Positions 26,066 to 44,080 of a stretch of 51,487 nucleotides of DNA are shown here, in pieces. Under the pieces are notes generated by a model. The model saw only the letters and a list, made by a program, of their open reading frames with translations. It had not been told where the DNA came from and searched no databases. The stretch spans positions 1 to 51,487 of IMG/VR virus record IMGVR_UViG_3300027896_000059. One strand, 5' to 3'. The translations under genes were made by a program, and so were the position numbers. Position 1 is the stretch's first letter. Each line of letters starts with the position of its first letter. The DNA comes from a virus.

Positions 26066-27991
26066 ATGGAATATAACGGATTAACGCTAGACCTACCAAA
26101 AGACACAACGTATGGGCTTTCTTTCTTTGAAAATGTTCCACAGTTTATTAGAGAGCTTACCGCTTATCGTCTTACTCGCGGAGAGTTTGGAAGAAGGGAA
26201 AGAATCAAAAAAGGAATCAAATTAGATGAATGCGGCTTGCTTAATCCAGCACAGCACATGGTCAATTGCTTCCAATTGATTTATGGAAATGATGTTCTGT
26301 TGCATTCTCAAGGAATACCAAACAATTATGCTTTAGACATCATTGATTTGTTCTGTAATGACAACGATTGGGGCATTGCAGGATGTGCAAGTAGCGGAAA
26401 AACCTTCTCTGTTGCGGCTTGCATAGTAATTGATTGGCTTTGCGCTCCTGATTGTACATCAACTTATGTTGCAAGTACATCGTTAGACGCTTCAGAAGAC
26501 CGACTTTGGGGTAAAGTTTGTACGCTTTACCGAATTGCAATGCGTAATTTACAGGCCGCATATGGAAAAGATGCAAGCATTGGAAACCTTGTTGAGTATC
26601 GAAGAATGATTGTTTTTGAGTCTATTGACACAAAAGACACAGAGCGAGACTACACAAATGCCATTAAAGCACTTGCATTCCCACGTGGAGGCGAGGGAAA
26701 GCGTTCTGTGGAGAATACAAGAGGGCGAAAAAACGCTAGAATGAGGCTATTCTTGGATGAGTTGGCTGAAATGGATCTTTATGCGCTTGATACTCGCGTC
26801 AACCTTGGCGCAAATCCAGACTTTATCTTTGGAGGCATGGCAAACCCATCAAATACTGCCAACAATCCACATACTGAGCTATGTCAGCCAGACGATCCAA
26901 TGGAATGGGATGCTGTTAATAGATATACTCACAAATGGAATACTAGAACAGGCGTAGCATTGCATCTTTCTGGTGAAGATAGCCCTAATTTCAAGGTTCC
27001 AGATGCAGAAATACCACCATTTGATAGGTTTTTGACAGTACAAGGCGAGGCAAACACGCTAAAACGATGCTATGGCAATAAAAATGCTTTAGAATACTGG
27101 AGAAACGTCTATGGGTGGTGGCCTGATAGTTCTGTTGAACTAACAATCTTCTCAAAACAGTTTATAAAAGGATGCGATATAGCATGGGAGCCTACTTGGA
27201 GCGATAGAACAAAGGTTGTTTGTGGATTTGACCCTGCATTTACTGCGGGTGGAGATAGATGCGCGGCTACTTTTTGTAGATATGGATCAAATGATACAGG
27301 AAGAAAGGTAGGATTCTATCTCGGAACAAGAGAATATAACAGTTCTGTAGGAGAAGTATTTGAAGAATCAATTGCAATCCAATTGGTTAAAGATTGCGTT
27401 GAGTACGGAGTTCATCCAAGGGATTTTGGTTTGGATATTTCTGGCGATGGCGGAAAAATGCTTAGAGCTATCATCATTGAATGGGGAAAATTCCACCCAG
27501 AAGCCATGTTCATCCATCCAATCTCTTCTATGGGAATGCCTACAGAACGAAGGATTAGCAGTTTGGATAAACGTACTGCAAAAGAAGCCTATGATCGTCG
27601 AGTAACAGAGTCTTGGTTCCAAGTTCATACTGCTATGTCAACGCAAAGTTTACTTGGCATAGATGTCGATAAACACACCCTAATGGTAAGCGAACTTTGC
27701 AGTAGGCTTTATTTCCACAAGGGCAGAAAAGTTGCTGTCGAGAAAAAGTTGGATATGAAACAGCGCATCAAGAAATCGCCCGATTTGGCTGATTCTTTGA
27801 CCTATGCTGTTGAAATGCTACGAAAAGCAGGACTAGAGTTCAGCTTTGAAGAAGAGCAAGAATCTTTAGACATCCTAGAGATCCGCGATTGGGAAGAACG
27901 TCTAATTCACAGCAAGCATAATGCCCAAGAACAAGTTGAGAACGATGAATGGGGATATGGAAGTAGTGGAGTAGATGAAGATGGATTTTGA
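26066..27991 (+). CDS. terL: Terminase large subunit
   Basis: The 641-residue protein has both terminase domains. The ATPase carries Walker A GCASSGKT at residues 106-113 and Walker B LFLDE with Asp231/Glu232. The RNase H-like nuclease shows GFDPAFTAGGD (Asp389), DFGLDISGDGG (Asp457) and a final PDLADSLTY (Asp573/Asp576). These residues power packaging and cut the concatemer. It is divergent from the late operon, 51 bases from its first gene, and is separated by 5 kb from the small subunit on the other strand. A Pro/Gly-rich acidic tail ends the protein. The gene is intact. Confidence 0.95.
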   Translation: MEYNGLTLDLPKDTTYGLSFFENVPQFIRELTAYRLTRGEFGRRERIKKGIKLDECGLLNPAQHMVNCFQLIYGNDVLLHSQGIPNNYALDIIDLFCNDNDWGIAGCASSGKTFSVAACIVIDWLCAPDCTSTYVASTSLDASEDRLWGKVCTLYRIAMRNLQAAYGKDASIGNLVEYRRMIVFESIDTKDTERDYTNAIKALAFPRGGEGKRSVENTRGRKNARMRLFLDELAEMDLYALDTRVNLGANPDFIFGGMANPSNTANNPHTELCQPDDPMEWDAVNRYTHKWNTRTGVALHLSGEDSPNFKVPDAEIPPFDRFLTVQGEANTLKRCYGNKNALEYWRNVYGWWPDSSVELTIFSKQFIKGCDIAWEPTWSDRTKVVCGFDPAFTAGGDRCAATFCRYGSNDTGRKVGFYLGTREYNSSVGEVFEESIAIQLVKDCVEYGVHPRDFGLDISGDGGKMLRAIIIEWGKFHPEAMFIHPISSMGMPTERRISSLDKRTAKEAYDRRVTESWFQVHTAMSTQSLLGIDVDKHTLMVSELCSRLYFHKGRKVAVEKKLDMKQRIKKSPDLADSLTYAVEMLRKAGLEFSFEEEQESLDILEIRDWEERLIHSKHNAQEQVENDEWGYGSSGVDEDGF

Positions 27992-28052
27992 TATTGACGA
28001 TTGCGGAGATTGTGTGGCATATTCACCGCATCTGAATGGTGACGCATTCTAG
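27981..28052 (+). CDS. Possible micro-ORF overlapping the terminase end (23 codons)
   Basis: An ATG ten bases before the terL stop opens a 23-codon frame in another phase, with Asp/Cys-rich codons at its start. The stop-start arrangement resembles the coupled overlaps of this genome, but there is no independent support. It may be chance. Confidence 0.2.
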   Translation: MDFDIDDCGDCVAYSPHLNGDAF

Positions 28053-28113
28053 TAAAACTTTCCTCCTCCAAAAGAAAAGCCCCGCTGTAGTGCGTCACCA
28101 CTCGGCGGGGCTT
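28038..28113 (-). terminator. Leftward terminator with nested palindromes
   Basis: AAGCCCCGC (28077-28085) pairs with GCGGGGCTT (28105-28113). Read on the minus strand the stem is followed by TTTCTTTT, so it should stop leftward transcription coming from the small-terminase side. Inside the loop AGTG/CACT can pair. In addition, TGCGTCACC (28091-28099) in the loop is the exact complement of GGTGACGCA (28038-28046), allowing an alternative or pseudoknotted fold. Confidence 0.7.
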
Positions 28114-28340
28114 GTCCGTTATAGCAAGTGAGGATGGCCGTGAATGCGTACCACGGGATTCAACAACAACGGCTTTGGAGAACCAAAACTCCTTACCCGA
28201 TGAGAGAGAAAGGAAACACCCTGCATCAATTTTGGGGTGCAGTAGTTTCTTTTCTTTTCTGACAGGCTTTCCCTACTGAGGAGTGGGGGGATTAAGGGGG
28301 GGATTTGCTTTACTCTTTTGGTTTTCTTTAGTGCTGGAGA
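28053..28340. other. Gene-free stretch after the large terminase
   Basis: Apart from the terminator described, I see a purine-rich tract (runs of G and A near 28280-28310) and a short inverted repeat near 28219-28250 (CACCC/GGGTG and CTGCA/TGCAG). No convincing gene is present on either strand. Confidence 0.5.
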
Positions 28341-28369
28341 TTGACTAAAAAGTATTCACACCGCATACT
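28341..28369 (+). promoter_or_regulatory. Sigma-70-like promoter for the DDAH-family gene
   Basis: TTGACT (28341-28346), a 17-base spacer and CATACT (28364-28369) lie directly before the ATG at 28376. Transcription would begin at or next to the start codon, predicting a leaderless or nearly leaderless mRNA. The match is good at -35 and moderate at -10. Confidence 0.55.
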
Positions 28370-28375
28370 TCCTAA

Positions 28376-29335
28376 ATGGCTAGGTTCTCCCCTCAAGATT
28401 TCAAAAGCGGCTCCATGATTCCTTCCGTGATTCATGGAAAGGTTGACTCTTCTGTTTCTAAAATCCTAGGAAGTCCAGATTCTACTCCCTTCGGTGGAGG
28501 TCAGTACAAACGCAAGCCTAGCTTTTTAATGTGTCCTCCAAAGTATCTCTCTACGGCCATCCCGAACAACAAGTTCATGAAGGGTCAGAAAATTGATACT
28601 GAAAGGGCAATGCGCCAGTATTCAAGAATCAAAAGACTCATTACTGCTCTTGGAGTTAAAGTAATTGAGTTGCCTCCAACAAAAGGGGCACAAGATCAAC
28701 ATTTTGTTGCCAACCTTGGTTTGAGTGTAGATCCTTTTATCTTCCTTGCAAAAATGAGTGCTGATGGAAGACAGATCGAAGAGGAGCCTGGACGTCGATT
28801 CTTTGAAAAAATGGGATATACAGTTCTTCAACCTCCTCACTTTTGGGAAGGAGAAGCTGAGACAAAGCATTGGAAAGACAAAACCTATTTTGGCGGTTAC
28901 GGAAAGTTTTCTGATTGGAAAGCTCAGGAGTGGATTTCTAAGAAAGGCGGAGTTGAGATCATTCCAATGAAGATGGTAAGTGATGATCTTTATCACTTGG
29001 ATTGTGTCATCCATGTTCTCGACAAAGAAAACTTTATGGTATGCCGTTCTGGTATTGATTCAGAATCATTCAAGCGTCTTGAGAAACTCGCAAACATCAT
29101 TGTTGTTCCAAAAGAAATGGAGGCTACTGGAGCTACCAACCTAATCCGTATCCCAGACAAGAATATTGTCATCAGCGGAATGTTCCAACCTGAGTTCCCT
29201 GAGTATAGAAAATCAATGGAATGGATGATGACTACGATGGATAAATTCAACAACTCTGTAATCTTTGCAGACATTGACGAAGCAGACAAAAATGGTGCAG
29301 ACTGTTCATGCCAAGTGATGCACATCACGTTCTAA
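28376..29335 (+). CDS. DDAH / amidinotransferase-family enzyme (guanidino-modifying)
   Basis: The 319-residue protein has the ordered signatures of the guanidino-group-modifying superfamily (dimethylarginine hydrolases, arginine deiminases, amidinotransferases). These are a DQHFVANLG segment (residues 107-115) in the place of the 'DQVFTAN' substrate-binding motif, an EGE motif (158-160) with the catalytic Glu, GGYG (173-176), YHLD (206-209) with the catalytic His207, and a C-terminal CSC (310-312) followed by seven residues, where Cys312 aligns with the nucleophile near the end of bacterial DDAH. The Arg usually following the GxG segment appears replaced by Lys-Phe. The family attacks the guanidinium carbon of arginine or its derivatives through a Cys adduct. 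The substrate here is unknown. The gene has its own promoter and stands apart from the packaging genes. Confidence 0.8.
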   Translation: MARFSPQDFKSGSMIPSVIHGKVDSSVSKILGSPDSTPFGGGQYKRKPSFLMCPPKYLSTAIPNNKFMKGQKIDTERAMRQYSRIKRLITALGVKVIELPPTKGAQDQHFVANLGLSVDPFIFLAKMSADGRQIEEEPGRRFFEKMGYTVLQPPHFWEGEAETKHWKDKTYFGGYGKFSDWKAQEWISKKGGVEIIPMKMVSDDLYHLDCVIHVLDKENFMVCRSGIDSESFKRLEKLANIIVVPKEMEATGATNLIRIPDKNIVISGMFQPEFPEYRKSMEWMMTTMDKFNNSVIFADIDEADKNGADCSCQVMHITF

Positions 29336-29505
29336 TGAAAAAAGCTTTTAAGATACTTGTAGGATTTATCGGCAGGATGAATGGTTTGTGTCCAGAATGC
29401 GGAAAAGAATTAAGTGCTTGCAATACTCCATCTTGTCACATATGCAACGTGGCAGGTTGTATTCGTCCCATTGGAATGTGGAAACGATTTATCAACAGCC
29501 TATGA
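29335..29505 (+). CDS. Small Cys-rich zinc-ribbon protein (56 residues)
   Basis: The ATG at 29335 shares a base with the preceding stop (TAATG). Residues about 20-42 contain CPEC, a further Cys, then CHIC and a fifth Cys, giving a likely one-zinc ribbon, followed by a basic end. It is coupled to the DDAH-family gene upstream and to a small basic frame downstream by ATGA. Function is unknown. Confidence 0.6.
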   Translation: MKKAFKILVGFIGRMNGLCPECGKELSACNTPSCHICNVAGCIRPIGMWKRFINSL

Positions 29506-29624
29506 ACAAAACAGCAACCATAACATCAGCCAAACCTCATGCAAATCTACGCCCTGCTAGAGTTGGTTACGGGTCTATTCAAAAGCCCAAAACCAAAACG
29601 AAAAGAAAACCTAAAGCTAAATGA
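29502..29624 (+). CDS. Small basic protein (40 residues)
   Basis: Opened by an ATGA overlap with the zinc-ribbon gene. The C-terminal half is a Lys/Arg/Pro/Thr-rich tail, possibly nucleic-acid binding. It ends one base before the next preferred start. Its support is the chain of overlapping starts; it could be a shadow of the neighbouring frame. Confidence 0.4.
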   Translation: MNKTATITSAKPHANLRPARVGYGSIQKPKTKTKRKPKAK

Positions 29625-29625
29625 T

Positions 29626-29943
29626 ATGACACCCGAAGAAGATGCTTGGAACATTTGGGAGAAAGCATTCTTCGATGGTAAAGATAAATATATCAAAGGT
29701 AGTGAAGAACATAAAACCCAGTTCTGGACTGCAGGGGCAGGGTGGTATGCCAAAAACCTTAAAGACGAACAGCTTGATTTAATCAGCTATCTCCATCATT
29801 TGACTGAGCGAGTTAAACTCTGTCAGCTTCTTGCAAAAATGATGAAAGAAGAAGAAGTATCTTTACGAGATGCGGCAACTCTATTAGAGAACTTGGTTTC
29901 GGATCGACAGCCACAAAGTCTCCCTCACCAATCTAATGATTAA
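29626..29943 (+). CDS. Hypothetical helical protein (105 residues)
   Basis: The ATG at 29626 follows the previous stop by one base; an open extension to 29539 overlaps the preceding small gene and is less likely. The product has a Trp-rich N-terminal helical part (PEEDAWNIWEKAFFDGKD) and a Leu-rich helical C-terminus. It overlaps the phosphoesterase gene by eight bases. No family was recognised. Confidence 0.55.
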   Translation: MTPEEDAWNIWEKAFFDGKDKYIKGSEEHKTQFWTAGAGWYAKNLKDEQLDLISYLHHLTERVKLCQLLAKMMKEEEVSLRDAATLLENLVSDRQPQSLPHQSND

Positions 29944-30742
29944 AAATAAACCTATTGTCGGAGCAATTGTTGTTTCCGATCTTCATTGTGGATCATCTGT
30001 TGGTTTATGGCCTGATGGCTTTGAGACAAAAACAGGAAACAAGATTGGTCTAGGAAAGAATCTCCATCAGCAATGGCTATGGCAATGCTGGCAAGATTCC
30101 GTTGAAAAAGGAATCAAGCACTTTGGTAAAGATCCATTTGCTTTGCTCCTTAATGGCGATCTGCTAGAGGGCATACATCACGGCACAAAAGAAGTTGTAG
30201 CCCAAGACTGCCTAGATCATTCAAACGCCGCTATAGAGGCTATTAGGCCACTTGCTAGTGCTTCTGCTGTTACCTATCTAACCGCTGGAACAGAATGCCA
30301 TGTTAAAAATTGGGAAGAATACATTGCTACCAAGCTAGAAGGAAAATGGTGTGGAGATAAAGCTCTCATTGAAATTAATGGTACACTCATTGATATGGCT
30401 CATCATATGCCTACCAGTTCTAGGGCTTACCTTGAAGCTGGAGCTATGAGCATAACTATGGGTAATGCCAGACAGAATTACTCCCGTGTAGGTCATAGGG
30501 TTCCGAAAATATATCTACGAGGCCATCGACACACGGGAGGAATCTTTAATGATGGTTCTGGCATATTCATGGTAACTCCTGCATGGCAGTTACTTACGAG
30601 ATATGCCCATAAAGTTGTAGGAGATGCCATTTGTCGCCCTGGCATCGGCATCCTCGATTGGCGTGGATGTAAAGAAGGCGAACTACCAGCAACCAAACTA
30701 GTAACCTATGAGCCAAAAGAAAATCGACCCATCCGAAGCTGA
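29936..30742 (+). CDS. Calcineurin-like metallophosphoesterase
   Basis: The 268-residue product contains the metal-binding motifs in order: SDLH (Asp15/His17), NGD (Asp75), a GTECH segment (His122) in place of the GNHE block, paired His156/His157 and GHRH (His197/His199). These bind two metals and hydrolyse phosphoesters; phage relatives are of unknown substrate and may act on DNA, nucleotides or phospho-proteins. The gene overlaps both neighbours, so it is translated in the rightward middle block. There is no signal peptide. The Glu after Thr119 is unusual for the Asn-His motif. Confidence 0.8.
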   Translation: MIKNKPIVGAIVVSDLHCGSSVGLWPDGFETKTGNKIGLGKNLHQQWLWQCWQDSVEKGIKHFGKDPFALLLNGDLLEGIHHGTKEVVAQDCLDHSNAAIEAIRPLASASAVTYLTAGTECHVKNWEEYIATKLEGKWCGDKALIEINGTLIDMAHHMPTSSRAYLEAGAMSITMGNARQNYSRVGHRVPKIYLRGHRHTGGIFNDGSGIFMVTPAWQLLTRYAHKVVGDAICRPGIGILDWRGCKEGELPATKLVTYEPKENRPIRS

Positions 30743-31825: not shown

Positions 31826-31899
31826 TACGGGATGGTGTAAAGGTAGCACAGGAGACTTTGACTCTCCTAGTCATGGTTCGATCCCATGTCCCGTAGCCA
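31826..31899 (+). tRNA. tRNA-Gln (anticodon UUG)
   Basis: All arms fold: acceptor TACGGGA/TCCCGTA, D stem GTGT/GCAC, anticodon stem GGAGA/TCTCC with loop CTTTGAC, T stem CATGG/CCATG with TTCGATC loop, and discriminator G73 followed by encoded CCA. The anticodon TTG reads CAA (and CAG by wobble). The phage virion proteins are rich in Gln, so a supply role is plausible. Confidence 0.95.
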
Positions 31900-37629: not shown

Positions 37630-38292
37630 ATGAACAATACTGAAATCACACCCGATAGTCAACTGAACGCCTCATTTGTTAAAGCACTTGGGGAATTAAG
37701 GAATGTAGCAAAGAATGCAGTAAATCCGCACTTCCGTAACAGATACGCATCACTAGATGCCATTCTGGACGATGTTCGTCCTATTCTTGCCAACAATGGA
37801 CTTGGTATCTCTCAGGAGCCTATCTTTGAAGATGGAAAGGCTGGAGTAGTTACAAGGATTATCCACAAGTCAGGAGAGACAAGGGAAAGCAAGTTGATTT
37901 TACCTCTTAAGGATCAATCAGCACAAGGCGTAGGATCAGCTTTGACGTATGCAAAAAGGTACGCAATCAGTTCTGTGCTGATGATCGCCGCTGACGAAGA
38001 CGAGGATGGTGAGATTGCTTCTAAGCCAGCAGTAAAGATTGAAAAGCCAGTAGTTAAGAAGCAGGAACCTCAGAAAGCACCAGATCAAGAGGCTAAAGCA
38101 TCTCCAATAGATTCTCTAGCTTCTATGATGTGGGATGAAGAAGTATCAGATGCTCATGTCATTGAGTTTCTTATTGCCAATAAGGTTCCAGATGTAACAA
38201 GGAAGACTCTTATCACCGAGCTTCCAGATAAGGTAGTAGAACGCCTTGTCTCAGCATGGGATAAAGTTAAGGCATTCAAGCCAGCACTCTAA
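37630..38292 (+). CDS. erf: ERF-family single-strand annealing protein
   Basis: The 220-residue product shows the ERF signature in full: an N-terminal 'LGELRNVAKNA' and 'NRYASLDAILDDVRPIL' helix, the core GSALTYAKRYAISS (residues 102-115), and an acidic DEDEDGE (122-128). The C-terminal part (residues 140-220) is a Lys/Pro linker and a small helical domain. It anneals single DNA strands during recombination-dependent replication and repair. It heads the recombination block after a strong terminator and has the CA-rich leader. Confidence 0.85.
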   Translation: MNNTEITPDSQLNASFVKALGELRNVAKNAVNPHFRNRYASLDAILDDVRPILANNGLGISQEPIFEDGKAGVVTRIIHKSGETRESKLILPLKDQSAQGVGSALTYAKRYAISSVLMIAADEDEDGEIASKPAVKIEKPVVKKQEPQKAPDQEAKASPIDSLASMMWDEEVSDAHVIEFLIANKVPDVTRKTLITELPDKVVERLVSAWDKVKAFKPAL

Positions 38293-38293
38293 T

Positions 38294-38467
38294 ATGAAAA
38301 AAGATTCTATGACACACAACCTTCTTTGCGAAAAAGAAAGGCTTATTGAAATTGTTATTGATGCAATCAATGACAATATTCAGCAGGAAGATTTGATTGC
38401 TCTTGCAAACATGACTTCAAGCATGAATCAACAATGGGAAAATTATAAAAACGGAATGTTCAAATGA
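38294..38467 (+). CDS. Small helical protein in the recombination block (57 residues)
   Basis: The ATG at 38294 follows the ERF stop by one base. The product is a charged helix with Leu/Ile heptads and one Cys, ending in a Phe-Lys. It overlaps the nuclease gene by four bases (ATGA). It could link ERF and the nuclease. Confidence 0.5.
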   Translation: MKKDSMTHNLLCEKERLIEIVIDAINDNIQQEDLIALANMTSSMNQQWENYKNGMFK

Positions 38468-39534
38468 GCGACGAAAGAGACGGGAAACCTTCAGCAAGCG
38501 GTTTTAGCCGTCTTGCCTTATGTCCTGGTAGCTGGAACCTAGAGTCCACGCTACCAGATCAGGAGCCTAATCAATATATGACGCTAGGAACAGATGTTCA
38601 CTCTGTCCTAGCAGATCAAAAACCTTTTGAGGAACTATCCGAGGAGGGTCAAGAGATCGCCACACGATGCTTATCCGATTACTCTGATATGATCAGACAA
38701 CTTGATCTTGGAGAAAGGAATAAGGAAATCGTTGAGCAAAGATTCTGGTATGACGATTTGTTTTCTGGAGCTATTGATCGTATTGATTTTTTTGGAGATA
38801 CAGCAGTAGTAACAGACTACAAAACAGGACGCTCATCTCAGGGTAAGGCCGCAGAGAACCAACAGCTAAAGGCTTATGCCGTTCTTGTAAAAAACGCATT
38901 CCCAGAACTCAAGACCATCCTTGTAGCAATGATCCAACCGCTTGCAGGAGGCACTACCATTGCCGAATACAATGAAGGAGAGCTTGCCGCCGCTAAAGAC
39001 GAGATCCTTGACATCGTAAATGCTTCACTAAAGCAGGATGCTCCTAGAATTCCTTCGCCTAACGCTTGTAAGTGGTGTCGCGCTAAAGGTGTATGTCCAG
39101 ACGCTTATGGCAACTCTCAGGCCGCCGTCACAACGCTACAGGTAGCCTCTAGCGTATCAGTATCAACTCTTTCCAATGAGGAACTTGCATCCTTAGATGC
39201 TAAGTCTCTTGTAGTAGAGGATTTTATTGAGGAGATCCGAAAAGAACTCAAGTTACGTCTAATCTCAGGAGCGCAAATTGCTGGATATTCACTATCAAAA
39301 GGACGTACAACTAGGAATGTATCAGATAACGCCGCCGCTATATCTGCTCTTTCTAGCGTTCTGTCACAAGATGCTATCCTTGATTGTGCAAAGATTAGCG
39401 TATCATCACTTGAGAAAGCATACGGAAAAGCAAAGGGAGTTAAGGGAAAGGATGCGAAGGCCGCACTTGATGATCTACTTGGATGGATCATCGAAACCAA
39501 GGAATCAGAACCATCTATCCAACGTGACAGATAA
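38464..39534 (+). CDS. RecB-like PD-(D/E)XK exonuclease, DUF2800-type
   Basis: In 356 residues the nuclease elements occur in order: a His in GTDVHSVL (His46), GAIDRID (Asp105), the DYKTG core (Asp118/Lys120) and a QQLKAY helix. A four-Cys pattern (Cys20 with Cys202, Cys205 and Cys211) resembles the iron-sulfur clusters of AddB/Cas4-type nucleases. With ERF and the SSB-like gene it would make 3' single strands for annealing. The C-terminal 150 residues are a helical domain of unknown role. Confidence 0.8.
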   Translation: MSDERDGKPSASGFSRLALCPGSWNLESTLPDQEPNQYMTLGTDVHSVLADQKPFEELSEEGQEIATRCLSDYSDMIRQLDLGERNKEIVEQRFWYDDLFSGAIDRIDFFGDTAVVTDYKTGRSSQGKAAENQQLKAYAVLVKNAFPELKTILVAMIQPLAGGTTIAEYNEGELAAAKDEILDIVNASLKQDAPRIPSPNACKWCRAKGVCPDAYGNSQAAVTTLQVASSVSVSTLSNEELASLDAKSLVVEDFIEEIRKELKLRLISGAQIAGYSLSKGRTTRNVSDNAAAISALSSVLSQDAILDCAKISVSSLEKAYGKAKGVKGKDAKAALDDLLGWIIETKESEPSIQRDR

Positions 39535-43141: not shown

Positions 43142-44080
43142 ATGGATATACAAGACCTCAAAATACTTGTTGGCGATTGCAGGGAAACCCTAAAGCAGTT
43201 GCCAGATCAATGCATACAGACTTGTATTACATCCCCTCCCTACTTTGGGTTGAGAGACTATGGAAATGAAAGACAGATAGGATTGGAGCAAACTCCACAA
43301 GATTTTGTTGACCAGCTTGTATCCGTATTCCGAGAAGTGAAGCGTGTTCTTAAAGACGATGGTACTCTTTGGCTTAATCTTGGTGATACCTATTCATCCT
43401 ATAAAGATGGAAAAGCAACTCCCGATACGACAAGAGGAGATGATACAGGAACTCTTGTTGATAAGGGATTAGCTAAAAACAGAATGGCATCTACTTTTGA
43501 TGGTACAGGAATAAAAAACAAAGACCTTATTGGAATCCCTTGGATGGTAGCATTTGCTCTACGAGCAGATGGATGGTATTTGCGTCAGGACATTATTTGG
43601 CACAAGCCAAACCCTATGCCTGAGAGCGTAGAGGATCGTTGCACCAAATCACATGAATACATTTTTCTAATGAGCAAGTCATCCAAGTATTACTTTAATA
43701 ACGAATCTATAAAAGAAAGAGCTGTAAGCGAAAATAAACCAAGGCAATTTGGAGCAACACAGCAAGATGGAACATTCCGAAATGATGTTGGAAATATATT
43801 TAAAGATGACGGAACAAGAAACAAAAGAGATGTATGGTCAGTAAATGTTCAACCATACAAAGGATCTCACTTTGCTACATTCCCAGAAGATTTAATCAAA
43901 CCTTGTATTTTCGCAGGAAGCAAGGCAGGTGACATTGTTCTTGATCCATTCGGAGGTTCTGGAACAACTGGAAAGGTTGCTATAGATTATGGTCGCAGAG
44001 CTATCCTTTGCGAACTTAATCCAGATTATGTTAAGATAATCAATCAGAGAACAAATGTTACTAAGGGATTTCAGTTTTAA
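43142..44080 (+). CDS. Beta-class site-specific DNA methyltransferase
   Basis: The 312-residue protein has motif IV TSPPYFGLRDYG (Ser31-Pro-Pro-Tyr34) near the N-terminus and motif I DPFGGSGTTG (268-277) near the C-terminus, the order of the beta class that makes N4-methylcytosine or N6-methyladenine. 'WHKPNPMPESVEDR' is the usual conserved middle block. No endonuclease gene is next to it, so it is orphan. It could protect the phage DNA or alter regulation. Its stop overlaps, convergently, that of the glycosyltransferase. Confidence 0.85.
   Translation: MDIQDLKILVGDCRETLKQLPDQCIQTCITSPPYFGLRDYGNERQIGLEQTPQDFVDQLVSVFREVKRVLKDDGTLWLNLGDTYSSYKDGKATPDTTRGDDTGTLVDKGLAKNRMASTFDGTGIKNKDLIGIPWMVAFALRADGWYLRQDIIWHKPNPMPESVEDRCTKSHEYIFLMSKSSKYYFNNESIKERAVSENKPRQFGATQQDGTFRNDVGNIFKDDGTRNKRDVWSVNVQPYKGSHFATFPEDLIKPCIFAGSKAGDIVLDPFGGSGTTGKVAIDYGRRAILCELNPDYVKIINQRTNVTKGFQF

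Follow-up and report, generated by a model that had tools for sequence, protein, structure and literature searches.

The window, by which we mean the whole stretch of 51,487 nt that was analysed (IMG/VR record IMGVR_UViG_3300027896_000059), comes from a member of a freshwater (lake) phage lineage, and no DNA-level relatives of it were found among cultured phages. Downstream of the terminase gene it carries an open reading frame that a preliminary description had assigned to a guanidino-modifying enzyme (GME) of a tailed phage, outside packaging and replication, and our analysis supports this setting. The locus comprises the following features (window positions, strand, description):

26066..27991 (+): terminase large subunit (PHROG 2, E 1.4e-13; upstream neighbour by synteny in relatives whose contigs reach that far)
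28077..28113 (+): GC-rich inverted repeat (aagccccgc ... gcggggctt) after the terminase gene, read from the sequence
28341..28369 (+): predicted sigma70-type promoter, TTGACT-17-CATACT, 6 nt 5′ of the ATG, conserved in relatives
28376..29335 (+): gene for a GME-fold, ArgZ-like hydrolase, 319 aa (Pfam, phmmer, AlphaFold2/Foldseek, purifying selection)
28376..28510 (+): N-terminal extension, residues 1-45 (pLDDT <50, column counts)
29308..30742 (+): three conserved downstream genes (65, 134 and 268 aa; synteny in relatives)

The GME reading frame runs on the plus strand from an ATG at 28376 to a stop codon ending at 29335 and contains no internal stops. The motifs QDQHFVANLG (with D107 and N113), EGE (158-160), YHLD (206-209) and CSC (310-312) follow one another in the expected order and lie exactly where the preliminary description had placed them, which confirms that part of its reading.

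The order terminase large subunit, GME, conserved small genes is common to the close viral relatives seen in the survey of environmental phage homologues and their neighbours that had been suggested, and a terminase-based search revealed that GME itself is accessory. This search, in which absence was called only where 1.5 kb or more of sequence followed, returned 34 relatives with GME, 24 without it and 20 that were too short to judge. In the relatives lacking GME the same three small genes occupy this site directly behind terminase, and 12 GME-minus records held no copy elsewhere. Mapped on the terminase tree, GME presence switched at least seven times, six of these changes being forced by well-supported branches. 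The GME-positive relative L034 and the GME-negative relative L194 share 99.1% identity along the 2,324 bp that lead to the GME gene and 96% beyond it; such near-identical phages with and without GME represent a natural experiment for a phage metabolic gene. The GME alleles fall into two classes, with about 90% and about 66% identity to the window, and class membership does not track terminase identity, which points to recombination. GME heads a small operon and, preceded by a conserved promoter, forms an accessory cassette.

The promoter motif (TTGAC-N, exactly 17 nt, CATA(A/C/T)T and 6-12 nt to the ATG) precedes GME in 19 of 21 distinct upstream sequences; shuffling produced it in 0.05% of cases, and among 269 other genes of the lineage a single one has it upstream. 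In L194, which lacks GME, the same promoter precedes the next gene. Transcription usually starts about 7 nt past the −10 box. With 6-12 nt between this box and the ATG, the GME mRNA is therefore predicted to be leaderless or nearly so, and no ribosome-binding site is visible before the gene. The inverted repeat at 28077..28113 is a possible terminator separating the terminase and GME units; a consensus terminator scan did not report it.

Two further observations concern the neighbourhood. The interval between terminase and GME (27992-28375) holds different small genes in different relatives, among them genes of 165-256 aa, like an insertion hotspot. The conserved 268-aa protein encoded at 29936-30742 has SDLHCGS near its start, like calcineurin-type metallophosphoesterases, and had no match in Pfam or PHROGs.

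Family assignment, predicted structure and active site

The HMM search that had been proposed for this protein gave a match to Pfam PF19420 (DDAH_eukar) with an E value of 8.8e-11 and 42 bits, above the curated cut-off of 23. Among solved chains searched by phmmer, the cyanobacterial proteins ArgZ and AgrE were best (E 7.9e-16 to 2.8e-14), and the match to human DDAH-1 was much weaker. Full-length bacterial homologues share 28-36% identity with the window protein, and its assignment to the family is far above chance. The more specific NCBIfam models all scored below their cut-offs: NF052232 (arginine dihydrolase) gave 76 bits against 450, and the dimethylargininase models gave 86 against 300, 24 against 450 and 21 against 340 bits, the top score of 86 belonging to NF045659, the mycobacterial-type dimethylargininase. 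Compared with the loci L004 and L019, dN/dS of the gene is about 0.03, indicating strong purifying selection.

An AlphaFold2 model, built from 53 aligned sequences of the window and the loci, reached a mean pLDDT of 87.3; values are about 96 for residues 50-319 and less than 50 for most of residues 1-44. The top Foldseek hits were ArgZ and AgrE (E 2.5e-24 for ArgZ; TM 0.90 on the isolated target domain, 1.6-1.8 Å), followed by DDAH and then by SxtG (TM 0.65) and AGAT (0.58-0.60); HsvA gave 0.59. Residues were assigned by alignment with ArgZ of a Cylindrospermum genome, anchored at N113/N71:

28568..28570 (+): Asn65, corresponding to ArgZ N22
28694..28696 (+): Asp107, corresponding to ArgZ D65
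28712..28714 (+): Asn113, corresponding to ArgZ N71; Asp in ADI and DDAH-type proteins
28769..28771 (+): Arg132, corresponding to ArgZ R90, the first substrate-binding Arg, kept
28847..28849 (+): Glu158, putative catalytic acid, corresponding to ArgZ E118
28904..28909 (+): Lys177-Phe178, replacing x-Arg (ArgZ F138-R139; alignment and clade counts)
28994..28996 (+): His207, corresponding to ArgZ H168
29309..29311 (+): Cys312, putative nucleophile, corresponding to ArgZ C264; C310 upstream of it is not conserved

The propeller fold is present in the model, and Cys312, His207 and Glu158 are in register on C264, H168 and E118. The predicted convergence of the three residues in one active site is read from the superposition with ArgZ and from the alignment, not from distances. 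The preliminary description had left the catalytic acid open between Glu158 and Glu160; the former aligns with ArgZ E118 and is retained, whereas Glu160 aligns with A120 and drops out. All catalytic residues are invariant in every member of the window clade that covers them, and N65 and N113 are likewise present in every member covering those positions. N71 and C264 are named in PDB titles as ArgZ residues that were mutated. At the discriminating position of the FxxD motif, aligned ADI and DDAH-type proteins have Asp, whereas the family of the window GME has Asn throughout, as does ArgZ. Judged by alignment and model, the window protein is a genuine, active-looking GME of the ArgZ type.

Of the earlier label "DDAH/amidinotransferase", the GME fold and the catalytic residues thus stood, and the specific placement with either group did not, on account of residues, cut-offs and structure. 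We rejected the DDAH label because the dimethylargininase cut-offs were not reached and Asn113 stands where ADI and DDAH-type proteins have Asp. The amidinotransferase label was rejected because SxtG, AGAT and HsvA are structurally far more distant than ArgZ and the extra length of such enzymes is absent.

Residues 1-45 form an N-terminal extension that is predicted to be disordered yet is conserved within the clade (F4, Q7, GSxIPSV, DSSV, YK) and missing in the bacterial relatives. It had no match among the other window proteins.

The substrate end of the site differs from that of ArgZ. In DDAH and ArgZ structures the substrate carboxylate is held by the Arg at the R139 position together with the R90 equivalent. 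Only the first of these two arginines is kept in the window GME (R132), and the second is Phe178. The preliminary description had noticed Lys-Phe in place of the usual Arg after the GxG segment, and this replacement is real: the R139 column holds Phe, preceded by Lys, in all 55 window-clade members that cover it. Among bacterial relatives, 80 of 81 have Arg in this column, as do the proteins of Campylobacter and Bacteroides phages and all 80 viral relatives of the decarboxylase-linked kind described below. The window lineage is the only one seen to have lost this Arg. Further near-invariant positions have switched in the window clade (S57Y, Y86K, N126K, L166W, D202S, P214V, E277Y), which also suggests a changed specificity. 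An altered substrate pocket, as had been surmised, is supported, and the exchange of Arg for Phe offers a single-residue test of substrate choice.

Subfamily relationships and decarboxylase partners

In the tree, the window GME falls into an uncharacterised subfamily, the sister group of ArgZ plus the mycobacterial-type "DDAH"; we know of no member with known activity. At the base of this subfamily stands the window clade, on a long and well-supported branch (SH-aLRT 99); its exact position is unsure given the long branches. Bacterial members are spread across many phyla. The cyanobacterial genomes searched carry both ArgZ and a member of the subfamily, and the two are therefore distinct genes. 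The GME of Xanthomonas phage phiXF1 (L179) groups with ArgZ, outside the window family, and phages have therefore probably gained GMEs more than once.

With the arginine dihydrolase domain of ArgZ (Sll1336) and AgrE (Alr4995) the window GME shares the propeller fold and the catalytic and N22/N71 positions, but identity is 22-24%, the tree branches are separate, the ornithine cyclodeaminase domain is absent, Phe replaces R139, EGEA stands for EGAG and an N-terminal tail is added. The mycobacterial-type dimethylargininase NF045659 (Rv2323c type) gave the best NCBIfam score and also has Asn at both positions, but the window GME scores far below the 300-bit cut-off and lies on a separate branch. 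Rv2323c is required for growth on arginine (PMC4569260).

Bacterial members of the subfamily often have a phosphatidylserine-decarboxylase-like (PSD-like) gene as partner. It occurs in 41 of 71 bacterial GME loci, always on the same strand and with a median gap of 13 bp; 36 of these 71 loci hold a MATE exporter and 17 an ABC exporter. Operons combining a PSD-like decarboxylase, GME and a MATE or ABC exporter are seen among L065-L144 (e.g., L132:4028-8892, L070:5191-8902). Several cyanobacterial loci have a LysA/ODC-like decarboxylase in place of the PSD-like gene, and some bacterial loci also hold a penicillin-acylase-like or condensation-domain protein. From their gene content, the PSD-GME-exporter operons look like an uncharacterised pathway for an exported natural product. 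The D, H and Gly-Ser residues of self-processing pyruvoyl decarboxylases are invariant in the aligned set of PSD-like proteins.

The same pair is found in phages. A scan of viral contigs with the PSD-linked GME type as query confirmed 193 stretches, of which 80 were kept (L245-L324). In 79 of these 80 T4-like contigs the PSD-like gene lies just downstream of GME, and the major-head cluster is present in 76; in L285, for example, the order is head protease, an unmatched gene, major head protein, GME, PSD, PhoH and later a head-tail adaptor (pair region L285:3244-7323). Among 50,697 annotated phage records, GME was found in 40 of Campylobacter and 6 of Bacteroides phages and a PSD-like gene in 39 and 6, respectively, and every PSD record among the matches listed was also a GME record. 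The two genes are adjacent in Bacteroides phage SJC03 and about 42 kb apart in Campylobacter phage NCTC12673. In the Campylobacter phages PV052264.1 and PP921807.1, GME is matched in part only, across several short annotated ORFs, and the gene looks broken.

GMEs of the PSD-linked bacterial operons and T4-like contigs (PHROG 12759 with PHROG 12670) belong to the same subfamily as the window GME and share the EGEA-[DE]-x-K motif, but they retain the Arg equivalent to R139 and, in most cases, a decarboxylase partner; the window clade has neither. No PSD-like gene was found in the window or in 14 sister records (five of 49-55 kb; records may be incomplete), whereas six of six positive controls were found, and none of the PSD, MATE, ABC or LysA-like matches in the window was convincing.

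We regard the GME-PSD pairing in phages as a more interesting lead than the window gene itself, and the relatives beside a decarboxylase gene point to an unstudied small-molecule pathway during infection. No description of the pair was found in open-licence literature, and it may have been described earlier elsewhere. Annotations of Campylobacter phages list the partner decarboxylase as a lipid enzyme, and elsewhere it could be mistaken for a part of lipid metabolism. Should the pairing represent a polyamine or amine pathway, this would explain a common, apparently unstudied phage module beside capsid genes.

Proposed function and alternatives

Our best model, which we hold tentatively, is that the window protein is an arginine-dihydrolase-type hydrolase with a complete ArgZ-type site and a changed substrate end that probably serves polyamine or nitrogen supply, substrate and role being what we infer. 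It builds on the ArgZ fold and residues, the family-wide Asn, purifying selection, the PSD pairing and the known phage polyamine enzymes. Polyamine enzymes are well established in phages, among them arginase and pyruvoyl ornithine/arginine decarboxylases with the AdoMetDC fold (PMC9992855); they possibly serve the same end, arginine to putrescine under phage direction, but their folds differ from that of GME. Dihydrolase, amidinotransferase and phosphatidylserine were not found in the main text of that study. Putrescine promotes the replication of one Pseudomonas phage (PMC11898732), and glycine amidinotransferase is among the viral genes listed for a karst lake (PMC8226683).

In the proposed mechanism, Cys312 would attack the guanidino carbon of an arginine-like substrate, with release of one ammonia, and His207, Glu158 and Asp107 would activate water. 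The N65/N113 pair, as in ArgZ, would permit a second hydrolysis of the ureido intermediate, yielding the free amine, CO2 and two ammonia. These asparagines are also conserved in the mycobacterial-type "DDAH" and are therefore no proof of a dihydrolase by themselves. Since the usual partner of the family is a PSD-fold pyruvoyl decarboxylase, the simplest reading of the ancestral pathway would be a conversion of arginine via ornithine to putrescine (or a related amine). The MATE and ABC exporters and the penicillin-acylase-like and condensation-domain proteins of the bacterial operons suggest an exported natural product over plain putrescine. Because the window lineage has neither the decarboxylase nor the presumed carboxylate-binding Arg, its enzyme may take a decarboxylated guanidine such as agmatine, or arginine more loosely. 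Loss of the Arg and absence of PSD amount to one evolutionary event, and their link may therefore be coincidence. The phage might gain polyamine for packaged DNA and translation, or a release of nitrogen. A wider proposal, which we consider somewhat unlikely, is that GME and the PSD-fold decarboxylase form an undescribed arginine-to-amine route, shared by bacteria of many phyla and by several groups of phages and encoded directly behind the major capsid gene in T4-like phages. The window lineage would then have kept only the first enzyme, retuned by loss of the Arg to a carboxylate-free substrate (agmatine to putrescine).

An arginine dihydrolase with unchanged substrate, converting arginine to ornithine, ammonia and CO2 with Lys177 in place of the missing Arg, is possible but doubtful. 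Apart from that Arg, every ArgZ residue examined is conserved, Arg132 among them, and in the model Lys177 adjoins the lost Arg in the loop after strand 170-175; however, the lost Arg is otherwise almost invariant, and E277Y, Y86K and the other switches would be left over as signs of a changed specificity. Destruction of a guanidino signal or toxin, or deimination of arginine side chains of host proteins, as part of counter-defence or host takeover, would fit the accessory presence and absence, the promoter, the conserved disordered tail and the loss of the presumed contact to the carboxylate of a free amino acid. We judge it unlikely, as the decarboxylase pairing of the relatives fits small-molecule metabolism.

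An amidinotransferase that passes the amidino group from arginine on to an amine, whether to synthesise a guanidino compound or to modify some product, appears quite unlikely to us: the superfamily includes such enzymes and the Campylobacter phage homologues are annotated as amidinotransferases, but these annotations are most likely name transfer, the predicted structure is far nearer to ArgZ (TM 0.90) than to SxtG (0.65), AGAT (0.58) or HsvA (0.59), and the window GME is without the extra length of these targets (about 340-370 aa). That the gene is a non-catalytic or decaying remnant was already disfavoured and is highly improbable; the 24 testable relatives without GME show it to be dispensable, but the low dN/dS against close relatives and the invariant catalytic residues argue against decay.

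Among the window ORFs searched, neither polyamine genes nor genes of DNA hypermodification were recognised, and the latter was discarded as a context for the GME. An ORF of 1701 aa lies near the contig end (46211-51316, minus strand) and had no Pfam match. In the GME region Rfam reported tRNA only, and the window carries a single tRNA gene, tRNA-Gln (TTG), at 31826-31899. An Erf-type annealing protein with a PD-(D/E)XK exonuclease is encoded at 37630-39534 and an N4/N6 DNA methyltransferase at 43142-44080.
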